Positions 9,398-58,223 of a DNA stretch of 64,000 nt are shown piece by piece. Source of the DNA: Citricoccus zhacaiensis (lineage in GTDB: Bacteria > Actinomycetota > Actinomycetes > Actinomycetales > Micrococcaceae); NCBI RefSeq assembly GCF_014645315.1, contig NZ_BMLQ01000001.1, positions 243,665 through 307,664 on the forward strand. The letters run 5' to 3'. How positions within the stretch are numbered: position 1 is the first letter of the stretch; the number at the start of each line of letters is the position of its first letter. The notes under the pieces are model-generated. The model was given only the letters and a program-made list of their open reading frames with translations. It was not told where the DNA came from and did no database searches. The position numbers and the translations under genes are program-made.

Positions 9398-9414
9398 GGC
9401 CCTGCAACGCACTA

Positions 9415-9465: not shown

Positions 9466-9537
9466 GTTAAGCCTGTTCTGGTCCTGCGTGAAGCCGTCGC
9501 CGCGGGCCGCTCTCGCAACCAGCACGCACCGGCGCGA

Positions 9538-9804
9538 TCAATGGCCGGCTTCCACCTTGATCTCACTGATGCGGGCCATGATGCTGACCTTCAGGGTCGA
9601 GGGAGCCTTCTCGGAGCAGCTGCGCTTGACCACGGAGCGGATGATGCACTCCAGGTCGTACTCGTGGGAACAGTCCGTGCACTCACCCAGGTGATTCTTG
9701 ACCTCCTCGAGGTCCTGGTGGGTCAGCGCACCGTCGAGGTACTCGTAGAGCCGCTGGATGCGGGCATCCTCACAGTCGCCGATCTTCTGGCAGTCCTCGC
9801 TCAT
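9538..9804 (-). CDS. rsrA: Anti-sigma factor RsrA, zinc-binding (ZAS family)
   Basis: An 88-residue mycothiol-system anti-sigma factor. It carries the zinc-binding anti-sigma signature H-x3-C-x2-C (HLGECTDC, about residues 38-45) plus further cysteines (C5, C11, C53, C62). In this family thiol oxidation ejects zinc and frees the sigma factor. The start ATG overlaps the sigR stop by 4 bp, so the two proteins are translationally coupled, as is usual for SigR/SigH-RsrA/RshA pairs. Confidence 0.93.
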
Positions 9805-10529: not shown

Positions 10530-10743
10530 TGCCTGCCAGTCTACGGCCCGGTCCGTCAGGAGGGGCCGTTCGGCAAGCGACACTACGGCTGGGGCCATGA
10601 GGACCATCCTTCCCGGACGATTGGACTGTGCAGAACTGTGCTGGACTGCGCTGGACTGGTGGAGAGCAGCTGGAGCAGGTGGATCTTGGCGAGTACAGCA
10701 ACCCAACCAGCAGGGATATTCCGCGGCCGGTAATCTGGGCAGG

Positions 10744-13241: not shown

Positions 13242-13251
13242 CGTGGCCTCC

Positions 13252-14070: not shown

Positions 14071-14555
14071 TGGAACGACCACGGCATCCCGGATGGGCCG
14101 TCGTCGGCTCCGTGGCGGCCGGCGGTGCCCTCGGAACGCTGCTGCGCTGGCTGCTCGTGGCGCCGGCCCCGGAGACCGGTTCGCCCGTGGCCGGATGGAT
14201 CAGCCTGGGGCTGGTGAACCTGTCCGGGTCCCTCCTGCTGGGGCTGTTGGCCGGCATCAGCTCGCGGCGGACCCTGCCACGGTGGCTCGTGGCTGGCCTC
14301 GGCGTCGGCGTGCTGGGGGCCTACACCTCGCTGTCCGCCGTGGTTCTGGCCGCCTCCGTGGCCACGGCCTTCGGCCTCACGGGATTCATCCAGACCGGCT
14401 CCCCGGGCGGGATCGTCCTCATGACGGGCCTGGCCGGCACCCTCCTGGCCCTCGCGGCCGGAGCGACGCTGGGGACCGCCTGCGCCGCCGCCGGACTGCG
14501 TCTGGGAGGGTGGTCCGCTCCGGTGGCGGGGAACTCCTCCGGAGGGCACCCGTGA
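14070..14555 (+). CDS. crcB: Fluoride channel subunit CrcB/Fluc (first, divergent copy)
   Basis: A 161-residue, four-helix membrane protein of the Fluc family, which exports F- through dual-topology dimers. Helices lie at about 10-30, 45-65, 75-100 and 110-145. The conserved Asn is present (LVNLSGSLLLG), but the pore Phe box, normally TFSTF-like, reads AYTSLS, so both phenylalanines are lost. Its ATG overlaps the hisN stop. It is paired with a second subunit downstream, indicating an obligate heterodimer. No fluoride riboswitch is visible; expression appears operon-driven. Confidence 0.85.
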   Translation: MERPRHPGWAVVGSVAAGGALGTLLRWLLVAPAPETGSPVAGWISLGLVNLSGSLLLGLLAGISSRRTLPRWLVAGLGVGVLGAYTSLSAVVLAASVATAFGLTGFIQTGSPGGIVLMTGLAGTLLALAAGATLGTACAAAGLRLGGWSAPVAGNSSGGHP

Positions 14556-14899
14556 CGTCACTGACGATGATGCTGGCACTGGCCCTGGCGGGTGCCGTCG
14601 GAGCGGTCCTGCGGCTGCTCGCGGATCACTACCTCCATCCGCGAGGCATCCTCGTGGCCAACGCGATCGGCTCCTTCGTGGCCGGGCTGGCCACCACGGG
14701 AGTCTCCGAACCTGCCCAGGCCATCTGGGTGGTCGGCCTGGCCGGAGCCCTCACCACCTTCTCCACCGTCTCCGTCTCCACGGCGCGGGACGCCCTGTCC
14801 GGGAGGTTCGCCGCCGCCGTCGGGTCTTGGTCCGCGCATCTGGCTCTGGCCCTGGTGGCCGTCGGACTCGGGCTCGCCACGGGTGGCGCCTTCCGGTAG
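14552..14899 (+). CDS. crcB: Fluoride channel subunit CrcB/Fluc (second copy)
   Basis: A 115-residue Fluc subunit with canonical motifs: VANAIGSFVAG (pore Asn) and TTFSTVS (Phe box, one Phe kept). The GTG start overlaps the stop of the first copy (GTGA) and follows GGAGGG at 14541. Together the two encode a heterodimeric channel with specialised subunits. This is the last gene of the aroA operon. Confidence 0.87.
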   Translation: MTSLTMMLALALAGAVGAVLRLLADHYLHPRGILVANAIGSFVAGLATTGVSEPAQAIWVVGLAGALTTFSTVSVSTARDALSGRFAAAVGSWSAHLALALVAVGLGLATGGAFR

Positions 14900-14959
14900 C
14901 CGGAGGCCTGCCGGTCACCGAGAATCCGGCCACCGGCCGTCACGTACCCGCCTCTGGGC

Positions 14960-15361
14960 CTACCGGCCGGCGGCGCGGCGGCCCGAGGGGGCGGCCGACT
15001 CGCGGACCGGCTCCATGGCACGGCCCGCCCGATCTCGATAGACGATGGTCAGGACCACGGACGCGAGGATCGGCGCGAGGTAGACGGCGGCGATCCATGG
15101 CTGGCCGACGGCGAAGAGCACCACGGCGCCCAGGACGAACAGCACGTGAGCGGCTACGGCGTGCCAAGGCCACGGTGGCCGGGCCGGAGCCTTGGGCGAG
15201 AGCAGCAGGCCCCATGCGGCCGCCACCACGATCACGGCCACGACGGCCGCCCAAGGGCTGGAGAACAGCGTCAGCGCCCAGAACCCCGCCGCGCCCAAGA
15301 GCCCGAGTTCGAGCAGGAAGAGGAGGACGGCGTGGAGGGCGGGACCGGCGGTGACTGGCAT
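14960..15361 (-). CDS. DUF2568/YrdB-like four-helix membrane protein
   Basis: A 133-residue protein that is almost entirely hydrophobic: about four membrane helices (roughly 8-30, 36-52, 68-85, 88-108) and an Arg-rich C-terminal tail. The arrangement and length fit the DUF2568 (YrdB-like) family, whose function is unknown. It is a single gene, convergent with the fluc genes, with a strong terminator region on its upstream side belonging to tmRNA. Confidence 0.65.
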   Translation of the reverse strand: MPVTAGPALHAVLLFLLELGLLGAAGFWALTLFSSPWAAVVAVIVVAAAWGLLLSPKAPARPPWPWHAVAAHVLFVLGAVVLFAVGQPWIAAVYLAPILASVVLTIVYRDRAGRAMEPVRESAAPSGRRAAGR

Positions 15362-15395
15362 GGTAGCCCCAGTCTAGGGGACGGACGGGCATGAC

Positions 15396-15436
15396 ACAGG
15401 CCCTGGAACACCGGTGAACGGTGTTCCAGGGCCTGT
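15396..15436. terminator. Terminator of tmRNA (17-bp perfect hairpin)
   Basis: ACAGGCCCTGGAACACC (15396-15412) pairs perfectly with 15420-15436 around a 7-nt loop. It lies just past the 3' end of the leftward tmRNA. Confidence 0.8.
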
Positions 15437-15445
15437 GCGGTGGGA

Positions 15446-15816
15446 TGGTGGAGATGGCGGGAATTGAACCCGCGTCCGATGCAGTGTTGCCAGGTCTTCT
15501 CCGGGCGCAGTTTGCTGTGGGTGTTACTCGGCCCTGGCTGTCCCGCAAACAGGCAGCCAACCCGGGCCCAGCCGGATTAAGGTCTCCACCACGACCCCCG
15601 GCGAGGGTGGTGGACATTGGCTATCTAATCGACGCCAGGTCCTGGGGCGATAGCATCCTCAGGTTGACGGACTCGTTCACTGATCAGGCAGCGAGAGCGA
15701 AGTCAGTGCGCTTAGATTCGGCACTTGTTGGTTTGCAGAGAGCGTTGACGAGATGACTCTGCATCCTCGGCCCGCTTCCCCTGTCGCGACTCACATCGTC
15801 GAAACCGATCATCCCC
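15446..15816 (-). ncRNA. ssrA: tmRNA (ssrA)
   Basis: The 371-nt RNA runs leftward. Its 5' end GGGGATGATC... pairs with the 3' CATCTCC before A-CCA to form the tRNA-like acceptor stem, and the T-arm reads GGGTTCAATTCCC. The tag reading frame on the minus strand decodes AESKRTDFALAA followed by TGA, with the usual ALAA proteolysis signal. CCA is encoded. Together with SmpB, encoded 115 bp upstream on the same strand, it rescues stalled ribosomes. Confidence 0.97.
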
Positions 15817-15931
15817 ATGTTCTGTTCTCAATCAACCGGTTCCCTGCGGGGCTTCTCTGATTCCCCGCCTGGTCCGGACTATCCAGTGTAACGCATCCCC
15901 GACCCGGGGTATTCCGGCCGGTCTCCTGATA

Positions 15932-16441
15932 TCAGGCTGCGCGGCGGTTGCGGATTCTCATGGCACGCTGCGCCTCACGATTGTCCTGCTTCTCGCGCAG
16001 GGCATGGCGCTTGTCATAGTCCTTCTTACCCTGGGCGACGCCGATCTCGACCTTGACGCGGCCGTCCCTGAAGTACAGCTGCAGTGGGACGATGGTGTGT
16101 CCGGATTCCATGATCTGGCGGGAGATCTTGGTCAACTCCTGGCGGTGCAGCAGCAGCTTGCGCCGCCGGCGTGCAGAGTGGTTGGTCCAGGACCCGTTGA
16201 GGTACTCCGGGATGTAGACCTGCTCGAGGAAGAGCTCATCCCCGTAGAAGACGGCGAACCCGTCCACGAGGGAGGCGTTGCCCTCGCGCAGGGACTTGAC
16301 CTCGGTCCCCATCAGGGAGATCCCGGCCTCGTAGGTGTCCAGGATGAGGTAGTTGTGCCGGGCCTTGCGGTTGGTCGCGATGATCTGACGGCCGTCCGGG
16401 GTGGACGACTTGCCGGACTTGCCGGCGGACTTCTTGGCCAT
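15932..16441 (-). CDS. smpB: SsrA-binding protein SmpB
   Basis: A 169-residue protein that delivers tmRNA to stalled ribosomes. Family motifs: NRKARHNYLILDTYEAGI at the start, GTEVKSLR and the basic C-terminal tail (KKDYDKRHALREKQ). The ATG follows GGAGGGG. It is placed directly upstream of ssrA and downstream of the M23-ftsXE genes. Confidence 0.96.
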   Translation of the reverse strand: MAKKSAGKSGKSSTPDGRQIIATNRKARHNYLILDTYEAGISLMGTEVKSLREGNASLVDGFAVFYGDELFLEQVYIPEYLNGSWTNHSARRRRKLLLHRQELTKISRQIMESGHTIVPLQLYFRDGRVKVEIGVAQGKKDYDKRHALREKQDNREAQRAMRIRNRRAA

Positions 16442-46277: not shown

Positions 46278-47129
46278 CTACAGCACCCTCTGCTCTTCCG
46301 GCAGTGCACCGATCCTCAGCATGAGTTGATAACAGATGACGGAGACCACGAGGCCGCCGGCCAATACCAGGAGGCCCGTGAAGGTCTGGTAGACGCGTAC
46401 TGCGTCCGGCTGGGTTCCCAACAGCAGCAACACGATCCACGGGGCCGCCACGGCCAGGCGAGCGGCATTGACGGTCCAGGACTGACGGGACTCCAGTTCG
46501 CTACGGGTCCGGGCATCCTCACGCAGGAACTCGGCGAGGGTGGACAGCAGGTTGCCGATGTCTGCGCCGCCGACCTCCCGGGTCAGCCGCAGGGCGGCGA
46601 TCAACCGGTCGGCCACCGGATCGGCCATCCGGAACTTAAGGTTGTCCAGGGCGTCCATGAACCGCAGTCCCGAACGGTAGTCCCGGGCGAACTCGCGGAA
46701 GGCAGGCTGGAGTTCCTCCGGTCCCTTGTCCCCGAGCTGGATGAGTGCCTCGGGCAGTGTCAGGCCGGCACGGATGGCAGATCGGAGGTGGTCCACGGCA
46801 TCTGGCCACACATCACGCAGCAGGGTGCGCCGCTTCTTCGCCTGCCAATTCAGCGCGACCCATGGCACCAGCGCCCCGAACAGACCGAAGCACAACGCGA
46901 TCGGCAGGGCCCGCGTCACGATGAAGACCAGCAGCAGCGCCACCATTCCGCAGCCGATCATCGCCGCCACCACACCGGCGGGGCCGACCTGCTCGACGCC
47001 GGCACGGGCGAGCAGTTGCCGCAGGTTGCTGTCCCGGCGGATCACCACCGGTGTGTCCCCGCGGGGCCAGAACGACCACCACACCAGGAACAACCCGGCC
47101 CCCAGCATCAGCCCCAGGAACAGCGACAT
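46278..47129 (-). CDS. tadB: Tad inner-membrane protein TadB (T2SS F family)
   Basis: A 283-residue platform protein: helices at about 2-18, 55-95 and 220-275, with a cytoplasmic T2SF domain (WPDAVDHLRSAIRAGLTLPEALIQL). Its ATG overlaps the stop of the tadA fragment by 1 bp, so translation would normally be coupled to TadA, which is now cut by the inserted element. Confidence 0.88.
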   Translation of the reverse strand: MSLFLGLMLGAGLFLVWWSFWPRGDTPVVIRRDSNLRQLLARAGVEQVGPAGVVAAMIGCGMVALLLVFIVTRALPIALCFGLFGALVPWVALNWQAKKRRTLLRDVWPDAVDHLRSAIRAGLTLPEALIQLGDKGPEELQPAFREFARDYRSGLRFMDALDNLKFRMADPVADRLIAALRLTREVGGADIGNLLSTLAEFLREDARTRSELESRQSWTVNAARLAVAAPWIVLLLLGTQPDAVRVYQTFTGLLVLAGGLVVSVICYQLMLRIGALPEEQRVL

Positions 47130-47869
47130 CAGCCGACCCCCACCACGGAGCGCACGTCGTAGCCCCGGGATTCGAGTTTGCGGTTCTCCAACATGGCTGA
47201 CGGACTGAGGACCAATTGGCCGTCAACGCGGTGGAAGACGGTCGAGGACTCGATGATCCCCTCCTCCACCCGGCTGCCGACGGACAGGATCTCCTCCACG
47301 TACCGGCGGCCATGGCGGTCCCGCGCGCAATGCACCACGAGGTCGAAACAGGACGCCACCGTCGGGACCACGAAGTTCCGGGAGATGTTCTCGCCGGCCA
47401 TCAGGGGCAGCGTGCAGATCTTCGTCAGGGCGTCCGACGCACTGTTGGCGTGCAACGTGCACATGCCGGGCAGGCCTGAATTCAAAGCAACCAACATGTC
47501 CAGGCTCTCGGCCTCTCGGACCTCCCCCACGATCAGCCGGTCCGGGCGCATACGCAGTGCCTCCTTCACAAGACGGCGCAGGGGAATCTCGCCGTGGCCC
47601 TCCAGGTTCGGCTGGCGGCACTGCATCTGGACCACATCACGCAAGGGAAGTTTGAGTTCGAAGATCTCCTCGACCGTCACTACCCGTTCCCTGCTGCCGA
47701 TGGAGGCCGACAGGCAATTGAGCATCGTGGTCTTGCCGGACTGGGTGGCACCGGACACCAGGATGTTCAACCCGGCGTCAACACTGGCATCCAGGAAGCG
47801 TGCGGCATCCGCGCTCAGGGATCCTGACCGCACCAGGTCCTCGACCCGATGGGCTCGGACCACGAATTT
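47129..47869 (-). pseudogene. tadA: tadA/cpaF ATPase, C-terminal fragment (gene split by mobile element)
   Basis: The 246-residue C-terminal part of the Tad pilus secretion ATPase. It keeps the ATPase core: Walker A GATQSGKTT, the Asp-box VVTVEEIFEL, Walker B RPDRLIVGEVREAE and the His-box MCTLHANSA. It begins at KFVVRAHRVEDL; the N-terminal 161 residues lie 9.9 kb away at 57741-58223. A GTG inside the element (47881) could start a stand-alone fragment (MSSGKFVV...), but the N-terminal domain would be missing. Removing bases 47870-57740 restores the reading frame exactly. Confidence 0.93.
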
Positions 47870-47883
47870 GCCGGATGACACCT
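47854..47883. other. Left attachment-site hybrid, integrase-gene side
   Basis: tadA sequence (…CACGAAT) runs up to the TT core at 47868-47869; element sequence GCCGGATGACACCT follows (47870-47883). The element half is nearly inverted relative to the half at the right end (AGGTATCCACCCGA), matching at 9 of 14 positions. Confidence 0.8.
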
Positions 47884-47920
47884 AGTGAGCTGACCGCCAC
47901 CTCATGGCGGTCTCTCACTA
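47883..47920. repeat. Inverted repeat between attachment site and integrase
   Basis: TAGTGAG-ct-GACCGCC (47883-47898) pairs with GGCGGTC-t-CTCACTA (47906-47920) around ACCTCAT: two 7-bp stems in register. It lies 30 bp upstream of the integrase start. It could be an integrase operator, an RNA hairpin blocking read-through, or part of the attachment region. Confidence 0.7.
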
Positions 47921-47950
47921 CGTCAGCCGACCAAGTGAAAGGCCCACGCC

Positions 47951-49453
47951 ATGACCACCGCGCCCCGCGCAATCCTGTATCTTCGCCTCTCATCTATCAC
48001 CGACGATTCGACGTCCATCGTCCGGCAGGAGGCCGATCTACGCTCCCATGCCGAGCGGCAGGGCTGGGAAATCATCGACGTTTTGACCGACAACGGCATA
48101 TCAGGGCGCAAGGCCCGCGAGAAGGCATCCGAGGCGGTCCGCCGAATCGCCGACAACGAAGCCGACGTCCTGGCCGTGTGGAAACTGGACCGGTTCACTC
48201 GACAGGGATGGGACGGTCTGGGTGAGCTGTCGAGAGCGCTGGATGCTCGCGAGCGCGCCGGTAGCCCTGCGCTGTTCGTAGCCCTGCAGGATGGGCTCAC
48301 GTCCGCGCAATCGGCTTTCCGCTTGATCGCAGGTGTGCTTTCCGAAGTCGCCCGGACCGAGGCGGATAATGCCTCGAAGCGCATCAGTAGCTCGATTCAG
48401 TACCGGCGTCTCGTGTCGAACAAGTTCGCTGGCGGCTCCCCGCCGTTCGGGTATCGCTCGGCCCCTGCGCCGGACGGTGTTGGTCGCGTGCTCCTGGTGG
48501 ACCCGGCCGAGGCGCCCGTCGTCCGCGACGTGGCGGCGCGTCTGGCTGAAGGCGTCGAGTCGATGGGGTCGATCATGCGCGATCTGGACGCCCACGGCGT
48601 GCCGACGGGTAGAGCGAAAGCCCGCCGGGAGCGGCAGCTCGGGCGCGATTGGGAGGGGGCGGACCGCGGGAAATGGACCGCTACGGCGATCCGGCGCATC
48701 TGGACTTCTGACGCCGTACTCGGTCGGCAGCGGCACGGCGGCGACGTTGTCCGCGGTCCTGACGGGTTGCCGTTACAGGTATGGCCGCAACTGCTCGACG
48801 TCGCAACCGTCGAGGCCGTTCGACGGCGCTTCGGAACGTACAACGGCGTGAAGGTCGGTACCGAGCCCCGACGGCGTGCTGCTCGTGTGTTGTCCGGTCT
48901 CGTTTTCTGCAGCGATTGCGGCGGGAAGATGTACGTCTTTTCGAGCACCGAGGGCCGCCGTGCGGGTTACCGGTGCTCCGCTGGCGGAAACTACGCGATT
49001 GTGTGCCGTAACCCTCGCATAAGCGCAGCCGACCTAGAGCGCATCGTCGCAGATGAGTTCCTGTCGGTGGCTGGGAAGTGGCCTGAAGTCGAAGAGGTTG
49101 TCGCCTCCACCGTCGCGGCGACCGAGGCGGCGCTGGCTGAGGTCGAGGTCGCGTTGCGCGAGGCGTCGGCCGCGCTGACCGCCGACGGCGCGGACGTGCC
49201 CGCACTGCTGAGCCGCCTGGAGACGCTCAAAGGTCGTCGAACTGAGCTGCGATCGACGCCGCAGACCGCCGAGGTCGAGCATCGGGCCACGGGGCGCACG
49301 CTCGCCGAGGCGTGGGCGGCGACGGAATGCGTCGCATGGCGCCGAACGCTGCTTGCGGTGGCGATGGATTCTGTTGAGGTCAGTCCTACGCCGCCGGGCG
49401 GTCGGTACATGACGCCGAACGAGGATCGTGTCGTCATCCGCTGGCGGAGCTGA
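47951..49453 (+). CDS. Large serine recombinase (integrase)
   Basis: A 500-residue site-specific recombinase. The N-terminal resolvase domain has catalytic Ser14 in YLRLS and KLDRFTR (about 76-82). The recombinase domain follows (GGSPPFGYRS, then DRGKWTATAIRRIW), then a zinc ribbon (FCSDCGGKM, later CSAG/CRNP, about 318-360) and a C-terminal coiled coil (about 375-445). This class joins attP and attB at a 2-bp core, in agreement with the TT core deduced here. It is the element's first gene, next to the left end. GAAAGG ribosome site. Confidence 0.95.
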   Translation: MTTAPRAILYLRLSSITDDSTSIVRQEADLRSHAERQGWEIIDVLTDNGISGRKAREKASEAVRRIADNEADVLAVWKLDRFTRQGWDGLGELSRALDARERAGSPALFVALQDGLTSAQSAFRLIAGVLSEVARTEADNASKRISSSIQYRRLVSNKFAGGSPPFGYRSAPAPDGVGRVLLVDPAEAPVVRDVAARLAEGVESMGSIMRDLDAHGVPTGRAKARRERQLGRDWEGADRGKWTATAIRRIWTSDAVLGRQRHGGDVVRGPDGLPLQVWPQLLDVATVEAVRRRFGTYNGVKVGTEPRRRAARVLSGLVFCSDCGGKMYVFSSTEGRRAGYRCSAGGNYAIVCRNPRISAADLERIVADEFLSVAGKWPEVEEVVASTVAATEAALAEVEVALREASAALTADGADVPALLSRLETLKGRRTELRSTPQTAEVEHRATGRTLAEAWAATECVAWRRTLLAVAMDSVEVSPTPPGGRYMTPNEDRVVIRWRS

Positions 49454-49474
49454 CGCCGGGTGCGGGTGATGAAA

Positions 49475-49560
49475 TGACGGAAGTACCGTCACTACGTATT
49501 CCTTTGTTAAGAGTTCTCTCTCTCGAACAAGTAATAGAGAAGTGACGCTTTACCGTCACT
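49475..49560. repeat. Two short palindromes flanking an AT-rich stretch in a 405-bp gap
   Basis: TGACGG-AAGTA-CCGTCA (49475-49491) and AGTGACG-CTTTAC-CGTCACT (49541-49560) share the TGACG/CGTCA half-site and lie about 67 bp apart centre to centre, around an unusually A/T-rich stretch. The gap 49454-49858 holds no convincing gene; ORFs in it lack family features. The arrangement suggests an operator or origin for the element's own or a helper's regulator. Confidence 0.6.
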
Positions 49561-49858
49561 TCCGCCACCCCTGCACGTGCCGGGCACCGCCCGCACCCCG
49601 CGTCAGTCGTTTCGGCGTCGCTGGCCCTTGTTGGTTACGCGTGGCCCTCTATCTATATGTGGCGGAAAGCTGCGCACCCTCCTCGGGCGGCGCAGCCCGT
49701 CACGCTGGGCGCCTTCCTTCCGCTCGGCAGCGCCCGGCCTGTCCGGTTCTGATGCTCCCCGTTCTCGTGCTTGTGGCGGGTTGAGCTTCCCGGACAGGTC
49801 GGGCGCTACTTCTTGCCCCACGTCCGTTAGCGACGCCCATACGAGAGAGGCGCCCGCC

Positions 49859-50041
49859 ATGCTTACCGACCCCCGCCATTGCGCCGAGTGCGGCGACCCG
49901 TTCGCTGACGACGTCGACCCCCGCCGCCTGACCTGTAGTACGCGCTGCCGCGTCCGCCGACACCGTCGCCGCGAGCGCGAGGAGCTGGCGCGCCTACGCG
50001 CGCAGCTCGCCGCCATGACCGCCGAGGAGGCCCGCCCGTGA
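49859..50041 (+). CDS. Small zinc-finger-like element protein
   Basis: A 60-residue protein: CAECGDPF (C-x2-C) and CSTRCRVRRHRRR (C-x3-C) would hold one zinc, followed by a basic helix and an Arg/Glu/Ala-rich tail. It looks like a small nucleic-acid-binding protein and could be a regulator or packaging accessory. The ATG follows GAGAGAGG. It overlaps the next gene by 4 bp. Confidence 0.65.
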   Translation: MLTDPRHCAECGDPFADDVDPRRLTCSTRCRVRRHRRREREELARLRAQLAAMTAEEARP

Positions 50042-50346
50042 GCGTCCCTGTCCCTACACCGCCGCGTCCCCTGGCCTATTCGGCTCCGTCCCCGGCTGCC
50101 GCGGCCGCAGCTGCGCCGTCCACCCCGGCGGCACTCCCTGCCCACACCTACACCGGCCGCCCGCCGTTCTACTCGGCAATGGAGCGCCGCACCTGGCGCG
50201 GCAGCGACGGCAAGAGTACGCGCGGTATCGCACTGATGAAGGGCCGTAACAGCGTGGCTATCTTTCTCACGCCGGAGCAGGCGCGCTCGCTCGCTGACGG
50301 GCTGCACGACCTCGTCGAGGACATAGACGCTGCGCCTCGGCGGTGA
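50038..50346 (+). CDS. Hypothetical element protein (102 residues)
   Basis: Not recognised. A Pro/Ala-rich N-terminus (1-40) precedes a small folded part (FYSAMERRTWRGSDG, VAIFLTPEQARSLADGLHDL). Its slot just before the HNH and large-terminase genes is where many phages carry the small terminase, but no helix-turn-helix is visible. GTG start overlaps the previous stop; its own stop overlaps the HNH start. Confidence 0.55.
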   Translation: MSVPVPTPPRPLAYSAPSPAAAAAAAPSTPAALPAHTYTGRPPFYSAMERRTWRGSDGKSTRGIALMKGRNSVAIFLTPEQARSLADGLHDLVEDIDAAPRR

Positions 50347-50720
50347 GCTGGCAACCGCAGCGCCCTTGCCTGTCCTGCGGTCGTCCGCAGCGTGTGGGCA
50401 AGCGGTGCACTGACTGCGCTGCCGGTCACCGCCGTTCGCACGAGGTGCGCAAACCCGGACGCTCCGCTCGCGCTTCGGGCTATGACGCTCGATGGGATGC
50501 GCTGTCTCGGCGTGCCCGGCGCATACAGGACTGGTGCACCGACTGCGGTCGTCCCGACATGTTGCAGGCGGACCACTTGCCGAGCGCGTGGCACCGCCAC
50601 GAGCGCGGCCTGCCGCTGCGCCTGCAGGACGTCGACGTCGTGTGTGCCGCGTGCAACACCGACCGCGGCAGCTCCCGCCCCGGCTCCGAGCGCTACCGCG
50701 TCGAGTTCGGCGACCGCTGA
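50343..50720 (+). CDS. HNH endonuclease
   Basis: A 125-residue HNH nuclease: two zinc pairs (CLSCG and CTDC near the N-terminus; CTDCG and CAACN later) and the HNH core with DHLPSAWHRH followed by VCAACNTDRG. Phage HNH proteins next to terminase assist cleavage of concatemers in cos-type packaging. Position one gene before the large terminase fits this. Confidence 0.85.
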   Translation: MSWQPQRPCLSCGRPQRVGKRCTDCAAGHRRSHEVRKPGRSARASGYDARWDALSRRARRIQDWCTDCGRPDMLQADHLPSAWHRHERGLPLRLQDVDVVCAACNTDRGSSRPGSERYRVEFGDR

Positions 50721-50835
50721 CCCTCGAGACCTGGGGGGCAGGGGTGACCGCACCCCCGCTGGACTGGCGGCGTTCAGGGCCGGAGCCGAATTGTATCGCC
50801 CATTGTTCTAGCCCTACCGCCTGAAAGGGGGGTCT

Positions 50836-52311
50836 ATGGCCGCACCCGGCCGCAAGGCAGCCGTAGACCCGTCGCCGCTGCCGTTCAGTCCTCGCGCCAC
50901 GGGCGCCGCACGGTTCGTGAGGTTCGCCGAGAAGTTCGTCAAGGTGCCGAAGGGCACCGGCGCCCGCGCTCCGATGCGCATCCGCGACTGGCAGCGCGAC
51001 CTCGCCGGGTCCGTCCTGGACGCCGAGGTGCAGCCCCGCACCGCGGGCTGGCTGCTCCCGCGAGGACAGGGCAAGTCGACCCTCGTTGCTGCCCTTGGGC
51101 TGTACGACCTCATGTGTGGCGAGGAGGGCGCGAGCGTCGTCGTCGTGGCCGTGGACGAGCGGCAGGCGCGCATCGTGTTCAACACCGCGAAACGCATGGT
51201 CGAGCTGTCCCCCGAACTGGAAACCCGGGTGCAGGTCTACGCCGACCGGCTCGTCGTGCCCGCCCGCGGCGCGTCGTTCGCCGTGTTGCCCGCGTCCGCG
51301 CCGTCGCTGGAGGGCCTGGACTTCACGCTCGCGATCGTGGACGAGGCGGGCGTCGTCAGCCGCGACGTGTTCGAGGTCGTCAGCCTCGCAGGCGGCAAGC
51401 GCGAGCGCTCGACGCTGATCGCCATTGGCACGCCGGGCCCTGACCCGGACGACAGTGTCCTCGCCGACCTGCGCAACTACGCCCGCGAGCACCCCGAGGA
51501 CACCTCGCAGGTCTACCGCGAGCACAGCGCCGCCGGGTTCGAGGACCACCCCATCGACTGTGAACACTGCTGGAAGCTGGCCAACCCGGCGCTCGATGAC
51601 TTCCTGTATCGCGATGCGGTGCGCGCGCTGCTGCCTCCCAAGACCCGCGAGTCGACATTCCGGCGCGCCCGGCTCGGGCAGTGGGTGACGGACACGTCCG
51701 GCGGGTTCCTGGCCGACGGCGTGTGGGACGGCCTCGCCGAACCGCGGCCGATCCCGCCCGGTGCCGACGTCATCGTCTCGCTCGATGGGTCGTTCAACAG
51801 CGACTCGACGGCGATCGTCGTCGCCACCGTGGACCGCAGGCCGCACTTCACCGTCGGCGGGCTGTGGCAGGCACCGCCGGAGCTGCCGGGCTGGCAGGTG
51901 CCGGTGTTGGAGGTCGAGGACCGTATCCGCGAGCTGGCCGAGACATTCAACGTGCGCGAGGTCGTCGTTGATCCATTCAGGTGGCAGCGCACCATGCAAG
52001 TCCTGGAGGCCGACGGCCTGCCCGTCGTGTCCTTCCCCTGGTCGGCGTCCCGCATCACTGCGGCAACGGCCGACTTCTTCGGCGCGTGTGTAAACGCCGG
52101 GCTGACGCACGACGGCGACGCACGTCTCGCCGCGCACATCGGCGCCGCCGTCGTCCACGAGGACAGCAAGGGCGGCATCCGCCTGGACAAGGCCAAGCGC
52201 CGCGGCCGAAAGATCGACCTCGCCGCGGCCGCCCTCATGGCGCACAGCCGCGCCACGTGGCTGGCGACGCGCCCTCAAAAACGACGACGTGCAAGGAGCT
52301 TCCGCACATGA
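50836..52311 (+). CDS. Terminase large subunit
   Basis: A 491-residue DNA-packaging motor. The ATPase has Walker A LPRGQGKST (about residues 75-83) and Walker B FTLAIVDEAG (about 161-170). The nuclease domain includes VIVSLDGSFNSDSTAIV (about 315) and VVVDPFRWQRT, with acidic metal ligands. Length matches complete phage TerL proteins and nothing is truncated. GAAAGGGGGG precedes the ATG. Stop overlaps the portal start. Confidence 0.93.
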   Translation: MAAPGRKAAVDPSPLPFSPRATGAARFVRFAEKFVKVPKGTGARAPMRIRDWQRDLAGSVLDAEVQPRTAGWLLPRGQGKSTLVAALGLYDLMCGEEGASVVVVAVDERQARIVFNTAKRMVELSPELETRVQVYADRLVVPARGASFAVLPASAPSLEGLDFTLAIVDEAGVVSRDVFEVVSLAGGKRERSTLIAIGTPGPDPDDSVLADLRNYAREHPEDTSQVYREHSAAGFEDHPIDCEHCWKLANPALDDFLYRDAVRALLPPKTRESTFRRARLGQWVTDTSGGFLADGVWDGLAEPRPIPPGADVIVSLDGSFNSDSTAIVVATVDRRPHFTVGGLWQAPPELPGWQVPVLEVEDRIRELAETFNVREVVVDPFRWQRTMQVLEADGLPVVSFPWSASRITAATADFFGACVNAGLTHDGDARLAAHIGAAVVHEDSKGGIRLDKAKRRGRKIDLAAAALMAHSRATWLATRPQKRRRARSFRT

Positions 52312-53630
52312 CAGACACCCTCACCGCCCTATCCCAACAGCTCGACGCGGGGACCGCGCAGCGCGCCCGCTATGACGCCGCGTACGAGGGCCGCTCGCCG
52401 ATGTCCTACCTCGCACCCGCGGCGAAGGTCGCCCTCGGCAGCGGCTTCAACGCCCTGGGCTCCAACGTGTGCCGCGTCGCCGTGACCGCGCTCGCCGAGC
52501 GGCTACGCGTGACCGGCTTCACCGTCGACGGCGCGGCTGCTCCCGAGCTGTGGGCCGCATGGCTGGCGAACGACTTGGACCAGCTCGCCGGGACGGCGCA
52601 CCGCGAGGCGCTCGTGCACGGCGCGAGCTACGTCATCGTGTGGGCCGACGCCGAGGGCGCCCCGCTCGTGACGATCGAGTCCGCCCATCAGGTGACCGTG
52701 CAGCGCGACCCGGCGACCCGCCGCGTCGTCTCGGCGCTGAAGCGCTGGGGCACGCCGACCGGCACCGAGGCGATCCTGTACGGGCCCGAGCAGGTCATCA
52801 AGTACCGCAGCGACACCGTCGGCGCCGCATCCGCCGGGCAGTTCCGCGTCGTCGAGTCGCTGGACAACCCGCTCGGCGTCGTGCCCGTCGTCGAGCTGGC
52901 GAACACCGACCGGCTGCTCGGCGGCGGTGCTAGCGAGCTGGCCGACCTGCTGCCCCTGCAGGACGCGCTCGACAAGCTGCTCGCCGATCTGCTCGTCGCG
53001 AGCGAGTACTACGCGCGCCCGCGGCGCTGGGCGACCGGCGTCGAGCTCGAAGAGGTCGAGGAGCTGGACGAGGACGGCGAGCCGACCGGCGAGCTGGTCG
53101 CGGAAAACCCCTTCCCCGAAGGGGACCGCATGCTGCTCGCTGAGGACCCGGCCGCGAAGTTCGGCAGCCTGCCCGCGGCCGACCTGAAGGCGTACGAGTC
53201 CGCTCTCGCGGTCATCACCTCACAGATTCAGACCGTGGCCGGGCTGCCCGCCCACTACCTCGGCGTCAACAGCGTGCAGCCGCCAAGCGCGGACGGCCTG
53301 CGCGCTGCCGAGGCGTCGCTGACCGCTCGCGCCGAGGCTCGGCAAGCGACCTTCGGCCGCGCCTGGGAGAAGGTGGCGCGACTGATGCACGGCATCCTGA
53401 CCGGCAGGTTCGACGCCGAGGTCCGCGTGAGCTGGGCCGACGCCGCTACCCGCTCGATCGCGCAAGAGGCCGACGCCGTGACCAAGCTCTATCAAGCCGG
53501 GTTGCTGCCCGCGTCCTACGCCCTGGCCCGGCTCGGCTACGGCGCCGACGAGGTGGACGCGATCCGCGCCGCCCGCCGGGCCGAAGCGCTCGACAACACC
53601 GGCACGGACCTCGGCGAGCTGCTGGCATGA
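52308..53630 (+). CDS. Portal protein
   Basis: A 440-residue SPP1-gp6-like portal: YEGRSPMSYL at the start, LVHGASYVIVW, TVQRDPATRRVVSALKRWG, and the long C-terminal clip/wing region (GLPAHYLGVNS, ARAEARQATFGRAWE). It forms the dodecameric ring through which TerL drives DNA. Start ATG overlaps the terminase stop (ATGA). Confidence 0.9.
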   Translation: MTDTLTALSQQLDAGTAQRARYDAAYEGRSPMSYLAPAAKVALGSGFNALGSNVCRVAVTALAERLRVTGFTVDGAAAPELWAAWLANDLDQLAGTAHREALVHGASYVIVWADAEGAPLVTIESAHQVTVQRDPATRRVVSALKRWGTPTGTEAILYGPEQVIKYRSDTVGAASAGQFRVVESLDNPLGVVPVVELANTDRLLGGGASELADLLPLQDALDKLLADLLVASEYYARPRRWATGVELEEVEELDEDGEPTGELVAENPFPEGDRMLLAEDPAAKFGSLPAADLKAYESALAVITSQIQTVAGLPAHYLGVNSVQPPSADGLRAAEASLTARAEARQATFGRAWEKVARLMHGILTGRFDAEVRVSWADAATRSIAQEADAVTKLYQAGLLPASYALARLGYGADEVDAIRAARRAEALDNTGTDLGELLA

Positions 53631-54151
53631 ACACCGCGACGCAGACCCGCCTCGCGGACATGATCGTCGCGCAGCTCGTGGCCCTCGTGGAACGGCACAC
53701 CGCCGGGCGCCTCACGGACGCCGCGTTCGAGGCCGCCGCCGTGGCGCTGCTGACCCGTGCGCAGGCGCAGGGCGCGGCCCTGGCGGACATCGCCGCAGCC
53801 GCCGAGGTGGGGCGCCTGCGCGGCACGGTGCTGGCCGCGATCGGTCTGGAGGTCCGCGAGGACGCCGCCGGCCACGCCCGCGCCGAGCTGGCCGCCGCTC
53901 GCGCCCGCCCCGAGTGGGACACCGACCCGGTTGCAGCGGCGACCGTGCTCGCGTCCGCCGTGACGCTGGCAGCGGCGCAGGAGGCCACCGACCGCGCGTA
54001 CCGCGAGCACGGCGTACGGCAGTGGGTCCGCGTGCCGAACGTCGGCGCCTGCGAGCTGTGCCAAGAGCTTGCCGACATGGGACCGGCGCCCGCGGGCGTG
54101 GAGCCCTATCACCACAAGGGGTGCGGCTGCTCGTCGCGCCCCGTCAACTAG
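53627..54151 (+). CDS. MuF-like minor head protein
   Basis: A 174-residue protein, mostly helical (AAEVGRLRGTVLAAIGLEVRE), ending in the MuF/gp7-type metal motif: WVRVPNVGACELCQELAD ... YHHKGCGCSSRP. It overlaps the portal gene by 4 bp, the usual position for this head protein. MuF proteins are injected or head-internal in other phages; the role here is inferred. Confidence 0.82.
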   Translation: MNTATQTRLADMIVAQLVALVERHTAGRLTDAAFEAAAVALLTRAQAQGAALADIAAAAEVGRLRGTVLAAIGLEVREDAAGHARAELAAARARPEWDTDPVAAATVLASAVTLAAAQEATDRAYREHGVRQWVRVPNVGACELCQELADMGPAPAGVEPYHHKGCGCSSRPVN

Positions 54152-54165
54152 CCCGAGGAGATCAC

Positions 54166-54639
54166 ATGACCACCGACCTGACCAACGCTGACGGCACCCC
54201 CGCCGAGGAGCTGCCGACCACCACGGCGGACGACAACGCAACGCCCGCCGCTGACAGCGACGCAGACGCCCCGGAGACGCCCGAACAGGACGCCGAGGCC
54301 ACCGAGGACGGCGAGACCTTCCCGCGCGCCTACGTGGAGCGCCTGCGCGCTGAGAGCGCCCGCTACCGCGACCGCGCCAAGGCCGCCGACGGGCTCGCGC
54401 AGCGTTTACACACGGCGCTCGTGGAGGCCACCGGCCGACTGGCCGACGCGTCCGACCTGGAGTTCGACGCTGCGCACCTGGACGATCCCGAGGCGCTGAC
54501 CGCCGCGGTTGACGACCTGCTCGCGGCGAAGCCGCACCTTGCGAACCGCACGCCGCGCGGAAGCGTCGGGCAGGGCGCCGTACCGTCCGGCGACGGCAGC
54601 GCCGTCTCCCTCCTAGGGATGATGCGCCCCAATGCTTGA
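54166..54639 (+). CDS. Scaffold-like acidic coiled-coil protein
   Basis: A 157-residue protein: a Thr/Asp/Glu/Ala-rich acidic N-terminus (1-48), a coiled-coil segment (YVERLRAESARYRDRAKAAD) and a short tail. Position between the MuF-like gene and the capsid gene matches phage scaffolding proteins. GAGGAG site. Confidence 0.75.
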   Translation: MTTDLTNADGTPAEELPTTTADDNATPAADSDADAPETPEQDAEATEDGETFPRAYVERLRAESARYRDRAKAADGLAQRLHTALVEATGRLADASDLEFDAAHLDDPEALTAAVDDLLAAKPHLANRTPRGSVGQGAVPSGDGSAVSLLGMMRPNA

Positions 54640-54820
54640 TCCCCGCACCGTCGCCGACGAGCTGGACGACGTCGTCGCCGTGATCCGGCGGGCCGACGAC
54701 GTCGACGACCTCGGGGCCGCCGAGCGCAAGCTGCGCGCCCTGGCCGACCAGCTGCGCCGCGAGGCCGCCGAGCCGCCCGCAAGAACAGCCTATTCACAGC
54801 GCGGACTAACGGTTATCTAA
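54632..54820 (+). CDS. Small coiled-coil element protein (62 residues)
   Basis: A short helical protein (VADELDDVVAVIRRADDVDDL, AERKLRALADQLRREAAE) overlapping the scaffold-like gene by 8 bp. Not recognised; a head-assembly accessory is plausible by position. Confidence 0.55.
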   Translation: MLDPRTVADELDDVVAVIRRADDVDDLGAAERKLRALADQLRREAAEPPARTAYSQRGLTVI

Positions 54821-54846
54821 CCGCGATCTAAACGCATTCATTCTTC

Positions 54847-54875
54847 GACCCCGTAGCCCTGGCGGCTGCGGGGTC
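54847..54875 (+). terminator. Hairpin upstream of the capsid gene
   Basis: GACCCCG-TAGCC pairs with GGCTG-CGGGGTC around a short loop, in the 117-bp gap before the major capsid gene. It may be a partial terminator or an RNA processing/stability element. Confidence 0.5.
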
Positions 54876-54937
54876 GTTGGCGTGCCCCGGTGGCCGTCAA
54901 ACAATCCCTATTCCTGACACCCCGAAAGGGCATTCAC

Positions 54938-55771
54938 TTGTCTACTTCCACCACCACCGCGCCCACCCTGACCCGCGAACAGGTCGCGAACCTGCTCGTG
55001 CAGCCTCTCGAAGCTGCATCCGTCGTCATGGCCGCCGGACCGACCGTGTTCGACTCCTCCGAGCCGCTGCGCATCCCGACCCTCACCGCGGGCACCGCCC
55101 CCGGCTTCGTCGGCGAGGGCGAGCTGATCCCGACTGACGACGTCGAGTTCGACGAGCTGAAGCTCATGCCGTCGGATCGCAAGAGCCTGAAGGTCATCAC
55201 CCGGTACACCGCCGAGCTGGCCCGTCAGTCCGTCATGGGCCTCGACGCCGTGCTGCAGGCCCGTCTCGTCAACGACGTGGCGAACAAGCTGGATAGCGCC
55301 CTGCTCACCGGCGACGGCGCCGACGGCTCGATCACCGGCATCATCAACCAGCCCGGCGTGCAGACCGGCACCCTGGACGTCGCCGACCCGGACTCGCTGC
55401 TCGACGCCCTGGCCCTTGCGCACGCCGCCGAGGTCACCCCGTCGACCTGGATCGTCAACGCCGCCGACTACATCGCCCTGCGCAAGCTGAAGGGCGCCGA
55501 CGGCCGCGGGCTGGTCCAGACCGACATCACCGCCGACGCCGCCCAGCGCCTCCACGGCACCGGCGTCATCGTGACGAACAAGCTGCCGCAGGGCACCGCC
55601 GTACTGGCGAACATGTCCGAGGTGGCCGTCGTCCGCGACACCAACCCGACCGTGACCGTCCTGTCCGAGCGGTACGCCGAGTACGACGAGATCGGCCTGC
55701 GCGTGACCTCCCGGTTCGACCTGGGCCTGCTGCGCCCCGAGGGCGTCATCGTCCTGACGGCGGGCGCCTGA
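54938..55771 (+). CDS. Major capsid protein, HK97 fold
   Basis: A 277-residue capsid protein with the HK97 family pattern: VMAAGPTVFDSSEPLRIPTL near the N-arm, GEGELIPTDDVEFDELKLMP (E-loop region), and the P-domain/spine helix DAVLQARLVNDVANKLDSALLTGDG. The TTG start at 54938 (STSTTTAPTL) has GAAAGGG at 7-bp spacing; a GTG at 54890 would add 16 residues but lacks a site. No long delta domain is present, in line with a separate scaffold gene. Confidence 0.92.
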   Translation: MSTSTTTAPTLTREQVANLLVQPLEAASVVMAAGPTVFDSSEPLRIPTLTAGTAPGFVGEGELIPTDDVEFDELKLMPSDRKSLKVITRYTAELARQSVMGLDAVLQARLVNDVANKLDSALLTGDGADGSITGIINQPGVQTGTLDVADPDSLLDALALAHAAEVTPSTWIVNAADYIALRKLKGADGRGLVQTDITADAAQRLHGTGVIVTNKLPQGTAVLANMSEVAVVRDTNPTVTVLSERYAEYDEIGLRVTSRFDLGLLRPEGVIVLTAGA

Positions 55772-56085
55772 TGACGGCCCCCACTGGCGCCGACGTGGCG
55801 GCCTTCCTGGGGGCCGCCGATGACACCGAGCTGACCGCCCTCGCAGACGAGCACGTCGCCGTCGTCACGACCATGGTCCGCGCCTACACGCGCGGCGGAG
55901 GCTTCGCCGCGGGTACGCCGAACGACGAGCTGGCCGCCGTCATCACGACGGCGACCGCCCGGCTCGTGGCCAACCCCGAGCAGGTCGGCTACAGCGTCGG
56001 CAGCGTCCGGCAAGACGCCGGGTTCAAGGGCTTTTCCCTGGCGGAGACGTTCGTCCTGAACCGCTATCGGCGGCGGTCGGCGTGA
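55771..56085 (+). CDS. Head-tail connector (gp6/gp15-like adaptor)
   Basis: A 104-residue helical protein; VAAFLGAADDTELTALADEH and VITTATARLVANPEQVG followed by GFSLAETFVLNRYRR fit the phage adaptor ring that binds the portal. Start overlaps the capsid stop. Confidence 0.8.
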   Translation: MTAPTGADVAAFLGAADDTELTALADEHVAVVTTMVRAYTRGGGFAAGTPNDELAAVITTATARLVANPEQVGYSVGSVRQDAGFKGFSLAETFVLNRYRRRSA

Positions 56086-56411
56086 TGATCCTGCACGACC
56101 GCATCGAGACCGTGCAGCGGATCGAGACCGGCGATTGGGATGACTACGGTAATCCCATCGTCGATGAGGTCCGCGTCCCCACCCGCGCCGCACTGCAGCC
56201 GATGGACAGCGACGAAATGACCGCCGCCGACCCCGGCGCGCAGGTCGTCACCCGGTACCGGCTCATTCTGCCCGCGTCCTCCAAGATCACCGCTCGCGAT
56301 GCGATCCACCACGGCGGCAGGACATACGAGGTGCACGGCGACATCGCGCCGCACACGATCCGCGGCCGCGTGCACCATCACGAGGCCGTCATCGTCCGCA
56401 CGATGGGCTGA
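56085..56411 (+). CDS. Head-closure (stopper) protein
   Basis: A 108-residue beta-rich protein of the SPP1 gp16 / head-closure type: short strands throughout with ARDAIHHGGRTYEVHGD near the middle. The ATG overlaps the adaptor stop (TGATG); a GTG three bases earlier is an alternative. It is the last head gene; the next genes in a tailed phage would be tail completion and tube genes, which are absent. Confidence 0.78.
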   Translation: MILHDRIETVQRIETGDWDDYGNPIVDEVRVPTRAALQPMDSDEMTAADPGAQVVTRYRLILPASSKITARDAIHHGGRTYEVHGDIAPHTIRGRVHHHEAVIVRTMG

Positions 56412-56420
56412 CACACAGAC

Positions 56421-56458
56421 GCGCCCCGCTAGCCCTTGATGGGCTGGCGGGGCGCTTT
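56421..56458 (+). terminator. Terminator of the capsid operon
   Basis: GCGCCCCGC-T-AGCCC pairs with GGGCT-G-GCGGGGCGC around TTGAT and is followed by TTTCG. It sits 9 bp after the last head gene. Confidence 0.85.
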
Positions 56459-56473
56459 CGTGCGTCCTGGCGC

Positions 56474-56605
56474 CTACTGGCCCGCGGCGGCCAGCTCGTC
56501 GACAAGCGCGTCGAACCTGTCCGCCTCCAGCAAGTGCCCCACGTGGGCGTAGAGGATTTCCGACACGTGGCCGATGGATTCAGCGTCGAGGTAGGTCGTG
56601 CTCAT
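56474..56605 (-). CDS. Small acidic element protein (43 residues)
   Basis: A short leftward ORF opposite to the structural genes: starts MSTTYLDAESIGHVSEIL and ends ELAAAGQ, mostly helical and acidic. The ATG has AGGAG with good spacing, which supports expression. Unknown; size and orientation would suit a regulator or antitoxin-like partner. Confidence 0.5.
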   Translation of the reverse strand: MSTTYLDAESIGHVSEILYAHVGHLLEADRFDALVDELAAAGQ

Positions 56606-56784
56606 GGTGTGTGCTCCTGTACCCGGCGCCCCGGCGGCGCCGTCGAGAAGAACTGTAGCGGTGCTTATATCAGAGAACAATCCCGTGCGCAAGTCGACTC
56701 GCGCGGGTCGATTCCCGCTCTCCCACTAGGAGTGCGGGGCGACTCTGCCAAGTAAGCGGGGCGGATATTCGCTAGCCTGCAGTG

Positions 56785-57687
56785 GTGACATCCTCGGACG
56801 AGCGCAATACGCGCTACATTGACTCCACCGCCTGGTTCGGCACGGTGAGCCAATTCACCGCGATTCTCGAAACGCTGGAGAAGGCCTTGGTCCAACTGGC
56901 AAAGCAAGAGAATGAAGAAGTGATCGCGAGCCTTGAGAAGGAACTAGAGAAGAACAAGACGAGGCTGGATGATACAAGCGACCAGACCGCATCGGGGGCC
57001 CGGCCCATGTCCCCGTATGAAGCTGTGATCACGCGAAATGAGTACGAGATAGCGTTGCATAGACGTGACAGCGCCATTGTGCTCGACATGGTGGCCACTC
57101 GTCCCAGAGTGAGGGACGAGATTTCCGGAAGTGCCGCTACGCTGGGCGACCGGATAGCCCGTGAGCCCTATGACTCGTTGACCGTGACCTTCTACGGTTC
57201 CAGTCCATATACGTCCCGCGTCGACCTCAAAGCAGATAGGCGCAGAGGCCTGAGCATCAACATCTCGTCCGCCTCACGGCAGTGGTCGAATGGCACCATC
57301 AAGGAACTGGAGGACACGGTTAGGCGTGGAACGCCGTGGTTTGGGCGTCAGTTGACTAGTTTCCGTTGGCTGTTTGGCGCTCTAACTGTGCTTGGCGGTG
57401 TCGCATTCCTGGGTGCGACTGTCACCAGTGATGCGTTGCGCGCGTTCATGTCCAGCCTCGTCGCCATGCCCGTAGGTTTCATCGGCCTGTTTGCATTATT
57501 TGTCATGCTGCCCGCCGCGGGTGCCGCCGCAATCATTCATCGTGTTGCGCCGCTCTTTGCACTCAATCTGGGTGCAGAAACTCCGTTCAGGGACCGTCAG
57601 CTTCCCCGCATGTTATTCGGTATCGGTGTCGGAATTATCAACGTTGCTTTGGCTCTTGCCCCCGCACTGCTATTCCCCGCGGGGTAG
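56785..57687 (+). CDS. Three-helix membrane protein with coiled coil, likely element cargo
   Basis: A 300-residue protein of unknown function. Residues 1-65 contain a coiled coil (ASLEKELEKNKTRLDDTSDQ), about 75-190 a soluble domain, and the last 115 three membrane helices (LFGALTVLGGVAFLGATV, VGFIGLFALFVMLPAAG, IGVGIINVALALAPALL). It is visibly less G/C-rich than its neighbours, as expected for recently acquired cargo. Placed alone at the far end of the element, it could act in superinfection exclusion or abortive infection. A GTG at 56782 is an alternative start. Confidence 0.75.
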   Translation: MTSSDERNTRYIDSTAWFGTVSQFTAILETLEKALVQLAKQENEEVIASLEKELEKNKTRLDDTSDQTASGARPMSPYEAVITRNEYEIALHRRDSAIVLDMVATRPRVRDEISGSAATLGDRIAREPYDSLTVTFYGSSPYTSRVDLKADRRRGLSINISSASRQWSNGTIKELEDTVRRGTPWFGRQLTSFRWLFGALTVLGGVAFLGATVTSDALRAFMSSLVAMPVGFIGLFALFVMLPAAGAAAIIHRVAPLFALNLGAETPFRDRQLPRMLFGIGVGIINVALALAPALLFPAG

Positions 57688-57724
57688 TTGAATGCGCCCG
57701 GCACAATATAAAGATACGCTCACC

Positions 57725-57754
57725 AGGTATCCACCCGATTCCGGATATTGACGG
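57725..57754. other. Right attachment-site hybrid, tadA N-terminal side
   Basis: Element sequence AGGTATCCACCCGA (57725-57738) meets the TT core (57739-57740), then tadA sequence CCGGATATTGACGG. Joining 47869 to 57741 gives codons for VNIRKFVV across the scar, the expected TadA sequence. Confidence 0.8.
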
Positions 57755-58223
57755 ACCAATGCCGGCGAGTGATATCCGGGATGACCACGTGCAGGCGTGA
57801 ACCGTCCGGCAGGGCCGCATCCACGAACGGGGAGGACAGGTCCAGGCGGCGGCCCGATGACTTCAGCATGCGCTCGACCAGATCCCGGACGTTCTCCTCG
57901 GTCAACGAGATGTTGGTCAGCTCGGACACACCGCCCCGCGCGCAGAACACGGCCGTGGGCGAGTTGATCCAGATCTCCTCGACCGTATCGTCGTCCAATA
58001 GGGGCTGGAGCACGCCGAAACCGGCAACGGAGTCGAAGACGGTCTTCTCCGCGTCGTCACGGTCCGGCAAGAGCGGCAGTGAACCGATCAAGGAGCGCGC
58101 GTCATAGTCCGCCGTGGCGGCTTGCACCAGACGGCGCATCTCCTCCGGCTCACGCTGCGGATCCATGCCCCGTCGGCGGATCAGCTCGCGGACCTCATCC
58201 TCGAGAATGCGGATGGCTTCCAT
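57741..58223 (-). pseudogene. tadA: tadA/cpaF ATPase, N-terminal fragment (gene split by mobile element)
   Basis: The first 161 codons of the pilus ATPase: N-terminal domain with GFGVLQPLLDDDTVEEIWIN and LPDGSRLHVVIPDITRRH, the segment just before the ATP-binding core. The ATG at 58223 has a strong GGAGGGG site. As it stands the frame runs on into the element for six codons and stops at 57720-57722. Alone it lacks every nucleotide-binding motif. With the fragment at 47129-47869 it makes a 407-residue TadA. Confidence 0.92.

Follow-up and report, generated by a model that had tools for sequence, protein, structure and literature searches.

Small elements with phage head genes of their own are already known. 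Capsid-forming phage-inducible chromosomal islands (cf-PICIs; Alqurainy et al. 2023) encode their own capsid, portal, connectors, HNH endonuclease and large terminase subunit (TerL) and no tail, according to excerpts of two reports (PMC10690885, PMC11389934). Candidate PICIs of Mycobacterium, including phiRv1 and phiRv2, are characterized in a section of PMC10654092 as phage-like regions with integration machinery and a major capsid protein (MCP) gene, and many small actinobacterial prophages (<15 kb) are already supposed to be satellites, as stated in an excerpt of PMC10023795. Here, we analyzed 64,000 nt of the Citricoccus zhacaiensis genome (3.69 Mb; contig NZ_BMLQ01000001.1, positions 243,665 to 307,664; hereafter the window), whose host belongs to a family that includes Nesterenkonia and Arthrobacter. 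The window harbors an element on the plus strand at 47868–57740 (9,871 bp with one TT core counted), in which integrase and MCP occur together in one region. Judging from sequence comparisons, we estimate at about 60% the probability that it is a capsid-forming satellite in which a cassette that answers to a helper phage of the AZ type has taken the place of the control and replication module.

The element itself encodes capsid, portal, connectors, HNH and TerL, all on the plus strand. A large serine integrase of 500 aa (47951–49453; Pfam Resolvase, Recombinase and Zn_ribbon_recom; PHROG integrase, 3e-73) occupies the left side. The head genes comprise an HNH endonuclease (50343–50720; PHROG 3e-9), TerL (50836–52311; PHROG 2e-82), an SPP1-type portal (52308–53630; PHROG 4e-104), a scaffold-like protein (54163–54639; PHROG scaffold 1e-4; start possibly upstream, near 54121), the HK97-fold MCP (54890–55771; Pfam 8e-34, PHROG 1e-44), an Ad1-like head-tail adaptor (55771–56085; PHROG 0.003; kept beside MCP in relatives) and the head closure protein Hc1 (56082–56411; PHROG 7e-15). 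These assignments agree with the first-pass annotation of this DNA, which had described a serine integrase with intact head and packaging genes; the MuF-like gene it listed (53627–54151) holds up only as a weak MuF/VG15-like minor head protein, with a Pfam VG15 match of 9e-5 that lies under the curated cut-off. Tail, lysis, repressor, replication, small terminase subunit (TerS) and head maturation protease families were not detected in any element ORF scanned with Pfam and PHROGs, in line with the earlier statement that tail, lysis, replication and repressor genes are missing. Two small ORFs precede HNH, and neither tail module nor AZ-type head genes are present, unlike in an AZ phage. Using tblastn, we found no homolog of the Wildwest-type recombination directionality factor (RDF) in the window. 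The earlier placement of a terminator right after the last head gene fared less well, as the GC-rich hairpin seen there by eye is absent from the list produced by a terminator scan.

Both ends are sharply defined. TT cores (no strand) lie at 47868–47869 and 57739–57740, and the insertion interrupts a minus-strand cpaF/tadA ATPase gene within a Tad pilus locus, with the 3' part at 47129–47867 (Pfam T2SSE, E = 2e-34) and the 5' part at 57741–58223; the gene is whole in the empty-site genome L039. When the window flanks were joined over one TT and aligned, an empty cpaF site was recovered in all seven other genomes of the same genus (78–94% identity across the junction). The junction alignment is gapless in six of them; L044 shows four gap positions, all of them outside the ~200 bp of alignment on either side of and across the junction. 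The exact ends proposed in the first-pass annotation are thereby borne out. The predicted excision junction forms a dyad centered on TT with 16/25 pairs, a score reached at 25 of 63,940 window positions.

The tail-less head block is found again at about 50 loci in Actinomycetota; in most of these, the integrase is of the tyrosine type. MCP relatives were found in seven loci from six genomes of three other genera (49–60% identity; among 295 family genomes), in seven IMG/VR contigs (60–65%) and in 45 named genome loci, whose titles are actinobacterial without exception and which include Mycobacterium and its relatives. The anatomy of 51 loci was compared with genes called by a home-made gene caller; eight duplicate loci had been removed, the pairs L030/L052 and L035/L062 (identical MCPs) were kept, and L092 and L093 are MCP fragments. 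A left-hand tyrosine integrase is present in 33 of the 51 loci, where integrase to last head gene spans 8.0–11.5 kb. The same distance, counted from the start of the integrase, is 8.5 kb in the window, so that the element is of ordinary size for this family and not unusually small as initially proposed. L033 carries its tyrosine integrase on the opposite side of the head block, L061 has a distant serine integrase, and no integrase was detected in 16/51 loci, many of which end at contig ends. The usual sister layout starts with the tyrosine integrase, a divergent gene, small genes and often a gene of 350–700 aa, and continues with HNH-TerL-portal-(MuF)-scaffold-MCP-Ad1-(Hc1) and then other genes; the window element matches it in having the order HNH-TerL-portal-scaffold-MCP-Ad1 and no tail module. 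Ten proteins from the left modules of five sisters were scanned, which yielded HTH (helix-turn-helix) regulators in L019 and L035 (2/10), an excisionase-sized HTH_17 protein in L021 (1/10), AAA_25 proteins in L021, L033 and L035 (3/10, one with weak Toprim matches) and four proteins without an informative family. To the right of the head block, at least 1.5 kb of sequence is present in 43/51 loci. The 130 downstream proteins matched 87 PHROG families, the 25 commonest of which include no tail family, and two of the proteins matched the TerS family phrog_800. Relatives embedded in full tailed prophages, whose discovery would have spoken for simple deletion, were thus looked for and not found.

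In the MCP tree, the window falls inside a supported clade (97/90) of 34 rows, the other members being 23 loci with a tyrosine integrase, nine without assigned integrase and the serine-integrase locus L061. Since L061 groups elsewhere in this clade than the window, serine integrases entered it twice. L061 itself (12154–13656) is a sister from Nocardia speluncae with a head block and a right-end serine integrase (26% identity). TerL behaves as a mosaic, with 61–63% identity in L019, L020 and L033 and 31–46% in the nine other matching loci. More distant capsid relatives (L025–L029; MCP 24–32%) appear by eye to be small tyrosine-integrase elements. Taken together, these data show that capsid elements without a tail occur widely in Actinomycetota and can exchange their control module. 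Of the proposed new type of phage satellite, the tail-less, capsid-encoding, satellite-like element remains; for its head block, the claim of a new type is not supported, because the block belongs to a broad actinobacterial family and Mycobacterium elements with integrase plus capsid have been published (PMC10654092, in the section cited above).

What sets the window apart is its left side, where two features go beyond the first-pass annotation: an integrase and phage attachment site (attP) common to AZ phages, and a noncoding element at 49464–49571 (plus strand). The closest relatives of the integrase in the phage database are from Arthrobacter phages (Azeevirinae in the records opened). Identity is 56.6–58.6% to eight AZ-type phage integrases, 50–51% to two further phages and 35–36% to Berrie and DrManhattan. 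A TT-centered dyad also lies upstream of the integrase gene in phiAAU2, KeAlii, Phives, Wildwest and L094 (17–19/25 pairs), and in phiAAU2 it coincides with the annotated attP. The outer attP arms of the element resemble those of AZ phages. An RDF homolog is present in all five whole AZ genomes.

The second feature is a noncoding near-palindrome of ~110 bp common to AZ/EH phages, directly 3' of the integrase and ahead of the head operon. Among 50,697 phage records, a 161-bp query from the window (blastn, E ≤ 1) matched 18, comprising 15 Arthrobacter and three Microbacterium phages (best E = 4e-8, some weak). A Berrie copy, searched in the same way at E ≤ 1e-3, retrieved 30 records (28 Arthrobacter, two Microbacterium), which match in two places in 21 cases, in three places in one and in one place in eight. 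A profile found two copies in 5/5 whole AZ genomes, one after the integrase and one ahead of an exonuclease gene; these genomes were chosen because they match, and three of the after-integrase copies belonged to the profile seed. In the satellite set, a phage-only profile detected the window (E = 2e-20) and L048 (4e-10) and nothing else below 9. A second model, built from 21 phage copies and applied to 41 sources at E ≤ 1, hit only the window (3e-17) and L048 (2e-10), leaving 0/39 other loci of the sister type.

The copies agree more closely inside one phage (0.87) than across phages (0.66), and the true pairing ranks first among 120, as would be expected if a phage-specific factor reads both. 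The two-copy AZ site is a candidate operator behind AZ immunity or a candidate replication origin, and the same choice between origin and promoter/operator applies to the copy in the window. The constant placement of the site ahead of an operon leans towards a promoter/operator, whereas an element described below that holds little more than integrase and site (L125) leans towards an origin. It may also act as a terminator; terminator-like sites in the region occur at chance level. A packaging site is unlikely, given that both copies in the five whole AZ genomes are internal (about 19.7–23.5 kb and 35.7–39.1 kb) and ahead of genes. Powerpuff (cluster AZ) forms immune lysogens, and no repressor has been identified in AZ/EH phages according to part of PMC8758107; Wildwest is described in PMC11895437, part one of which does not mention the repeated element.

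The 21-copy model matched five of the 295 family genomes (G000, which is the genome of the window, G038, G050, which corresponds to L048, G060 and, partially, G030 at 8e-4). These matches include three further elements, L048, L126 and L125, with differing integrases or cargo. L048 (about 7157–16297) is a serine-integrase element of roughly 9.1 kb that splits a luciferase-like gene. Its proteins resemble those of AZ phages (integrase 59–67% to eight of them, coat 41–49%, Ad1 70–75%, Hc1 50–55%), it has a TerS match, and its cis element lies about 2 kb from the integrase. L126 (about 2986–12246) comes from a genome of the same genus as the host. It shares 52% identity with L048 in the coat but only 29% with the window in the serine integrase, and has a weak TerS match (2e-4). 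The mini element L125 (about 7375–10045) spans about 2.7 kb and is inserted in the gene that L126 also targets, at the 5' end; its serine integrase is 70% identical to that of L126 (both 28–29% to the window's), and its other ORFs are short and doubtful. L048 and L126 represent a second kind of small serine-integrase element, with AZ-like coat, TerS and EndoVII/HNH-like genes; TerL and portal were not found among the proteins scanned (ten in L048). P22-like for the coat, and luciferase-like and thioredoxin/NHL-like for target genes, are tentative labels, given in part by eye. It is an even call whether these elements form a satellite class united by one helper-phage DNA element instead of by genes, which trans-acting helper factors would switch on or replicate. 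The membership we propose is equally balanced: a cf-PICI-like head block in the window, AZ-like coat and TerS in L048 and L126, and nearly the integrase alone in L125. If this is correct, such satellites would need no regulator or replicase of their own, each carrying one copy of the site as compared with two in AZ phages.

AZ-group tailed phages are likely helpers because both integrase and noncoding site match them. In the scenario we favor, the left module usual in sisters (tyrosine integrase, HTH regulator, replication-like gene) would have given way to a cassette with relatives in AZ-type temperate phages, consisting of serine integrase, attP and ~110-bp cis element. Infection by an AZ-like phage, or induction of one, would end the silent state of the satellite in cpaF: the helper RDF would make the satellite integrase excise the element at the TT cores. 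A precedent is PLE1 (phage-inducible chromosomal island-like element 1) of V. cholerae, which excises with PexA, the RDF of its helper ICP1, as reported in part of PMC6002521. Whichever helper factor recognizes the pair of sites in AZ phages may also act on the satellite copy, thereby switching on the head operon and/or replicating the satellite, which could then build its own head, package its DNA with its own HNH/TerL and take tails and lysis from the helper. Shared noncoding element, integrase and attP together suggest how repressor and replication genes can be absent.

Several observations weigh against this scenario. The integrase is rare, occurring in one other of 295 family genomes at 1e-60 and in none of 393 other genomes of the class at 1e-70, and the inner attP arms differ from those of AZ phages. 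No resident helper is seen, as the host genome yielded neither a homolog of the AZ-type tape measure nor a match to PF10145; for reference, the tape-measure homolog is found in 19/295 family genomes at 1e-20, including one genome of the same genus, and PF10145 matches 5/34 satellite-bearing genomes. The head genes are distant from AZ (portal 27–30% identity), Hc1 matched a single phage, Kumotta (42.5% over 67% of Hc1), and the family scan identified no TerS. A blastn comparison of the noncoding stretches with the sisters, aimed at a cos site, returned HNH-gene similarity and short matches only, and no cos site was identified. Finally, the terminator scan picked out a terminator-like hairpin in one arm of the cis element.

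The hairpin and the fact that no AZ-like resident prophage was seen would also fit a satellite with a non-AZ helper, which acquired integrase and downstream DNA by chance exchange so that the cis element is a mere passenger or a terminator; that the site directly adjoins the integrase in the window points the same way. We consider this unlikely. In L048, the site lies about 2 kb away from the integrase, L126 and L125 carry it together with integrases that are only 28–29% identical to the window's, and Berrie and DrManhattan carry it although theirs are only 35–36% identical, all of which opposes retention through integrase linkage alone. Moreover, a passenger would hardly be kept at E = 3e-17 beside an integrase that has diverged to 58%, and the within-phage agreement of the copies likewise speaks against this reading. 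Less probable still is a stranded relic with intact genes that can no longer move because TerS, RDF and replication functions are missing. None of these functions was found in the element, and it was not seen in seven other genomes of the genus, as such a relic would have it, but the head genes are open and tightly overlapping, the att dyad is intact and a phage-type cis element has been retained.

We reject the idea that the element arose by deletion from a complete tailed prophage, which we regard as very improbable. Its gene order does resemble a siphophage left arm. However, the same tail-less layout is repeated in many loci at different sites, all loci with an MCP identity of at least 41% are tail-less wherever the flank is visible, MCP relatives from the phage database are 25–28% identical among the 30 of 132 records listed, and the att ends are exact. 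The capsid-forming satellite with an AZ-type front end thus remains our preferred explanation.

The other ORFs of the element provide few clues, none of them reaching the family threshold (Pfam/PHROG E ≤ 0.01). On the plus strand, 49862–50041 encodes a small, weakly zinc-finger-like protein (sub-threshold DUF2116 and HNH PHROG matches), 50038–50346 a 102-aa protein without Pfam/PHROG family (52% over 60 aa in L027) and 54632–54820 a 62-aa ORF. Right of the head block, and likewise beyond the first-pass annotation, lie a small minus-strand ORF (56474–56692, perhaps only 56474–56605) and a plus-strand orphan ORF of 301 aa (56782–57687) with hydrophobic C-terminal segments. The latter is possibly cargo; searches of viral contigs, of plasmids and of the other 294 family genomes (at 1e-5) yielded nothing similar, and its weak matches in PADLOC (Cas7 model, 7e-4) and NCBIfam (0.18) were taken as spurious.

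Tad pilus genes are repeated targets of such elements. The window element (locus 47129–58223) and the tyrosine-integrase sister L019 (7457–19180) are inserted at different cpaF sites, the sister L022 appears to cut tadB (near 5398), and L127 (5439–14706) is a serine-recombinase element of ~9.3 kb inside tadC. Our guess is that the Tad pilus, perhaps a phage receptor, is lost upon integration. Among the sisters, L062 and L035 contain a second MCP/Ad1 fragment right of Ad1, perhaps a tandem or decayed second element, and the Tsukamurella tyrosinosolvens plasmid NZ_LR134447.1 carries an MCP (151515–152297) 49% identical to the window's.

If our reading is correct, a satellite that brings along the cis element and integration system of its helper may need neither a repressor nor a replicase of its own. 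The idea is directly testable, as the named helper group grows on Arthrobacter globiformis B-2979. The shared site may also help to explain lysogeny and immunity in AZ phages, for which no repressor can be identified (PMC8758107, in part). In the open-licence literature searched, we found neither a head-block chassis combined with a helper-type integrase and cis element nor satellites of AZ phages in print.

PICIs usually carry their own regulator and replication genes. The element would work like a cf-PICI, having capsid, portal, connectors, HNH and TerL and no detected tail genes, but differs from the cf-PICIs of the excerpts used here (PMC10690885, PMC11389934) in that TerS, protease, repressor and replication gene were not found and that it has a serine integrase and a helper-type cis element. 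We therefore do not file it as a cf-PICI, given the lack of detected protease and regulator or replication genes. The Mycobacterium candidate PICIs, likewise with integrase and MCP, include some with a serine integrase and with sites outside tRNA genes; no AZ-type cis element is mentioned in the cited section of PMC10654092, and phiRv1/phiRv2 are likened here by description alone. MulchRoom and MiniFlayer, satellites of Streptomyces phages, are also actinobacterial, encode head genes but no primase and use helper tails, as we propose for the element. Unlike it, they have terminal repeats and were isolated with virulent helpers, and MulchRoom, again likened by description alone, has a tyrosine integrase and an HTH protein (all from an excerpt of PMC10690885). 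PLE1 provides a model of how the element may work, its serine integrase using a helper-encoded RDF, yet it is unrelated and PLE encodes its own initiator RepA, as stated in parts of PMC6002521 and PMC7145576. The AZ/EH phages KeAlii, Phives, Wildwest, Berrie, DrManhattan and Powerpuff have integrase, attP architecture and cis element in common with the element, whereas they are whole tailed siphophages of about 42–44 kb whose head genes are distant from those of the element. In conclusion, compared with these systems, the new part is the front end, made up of AZ-type integrase, attP and cis element, and not the head block to which it is joined.

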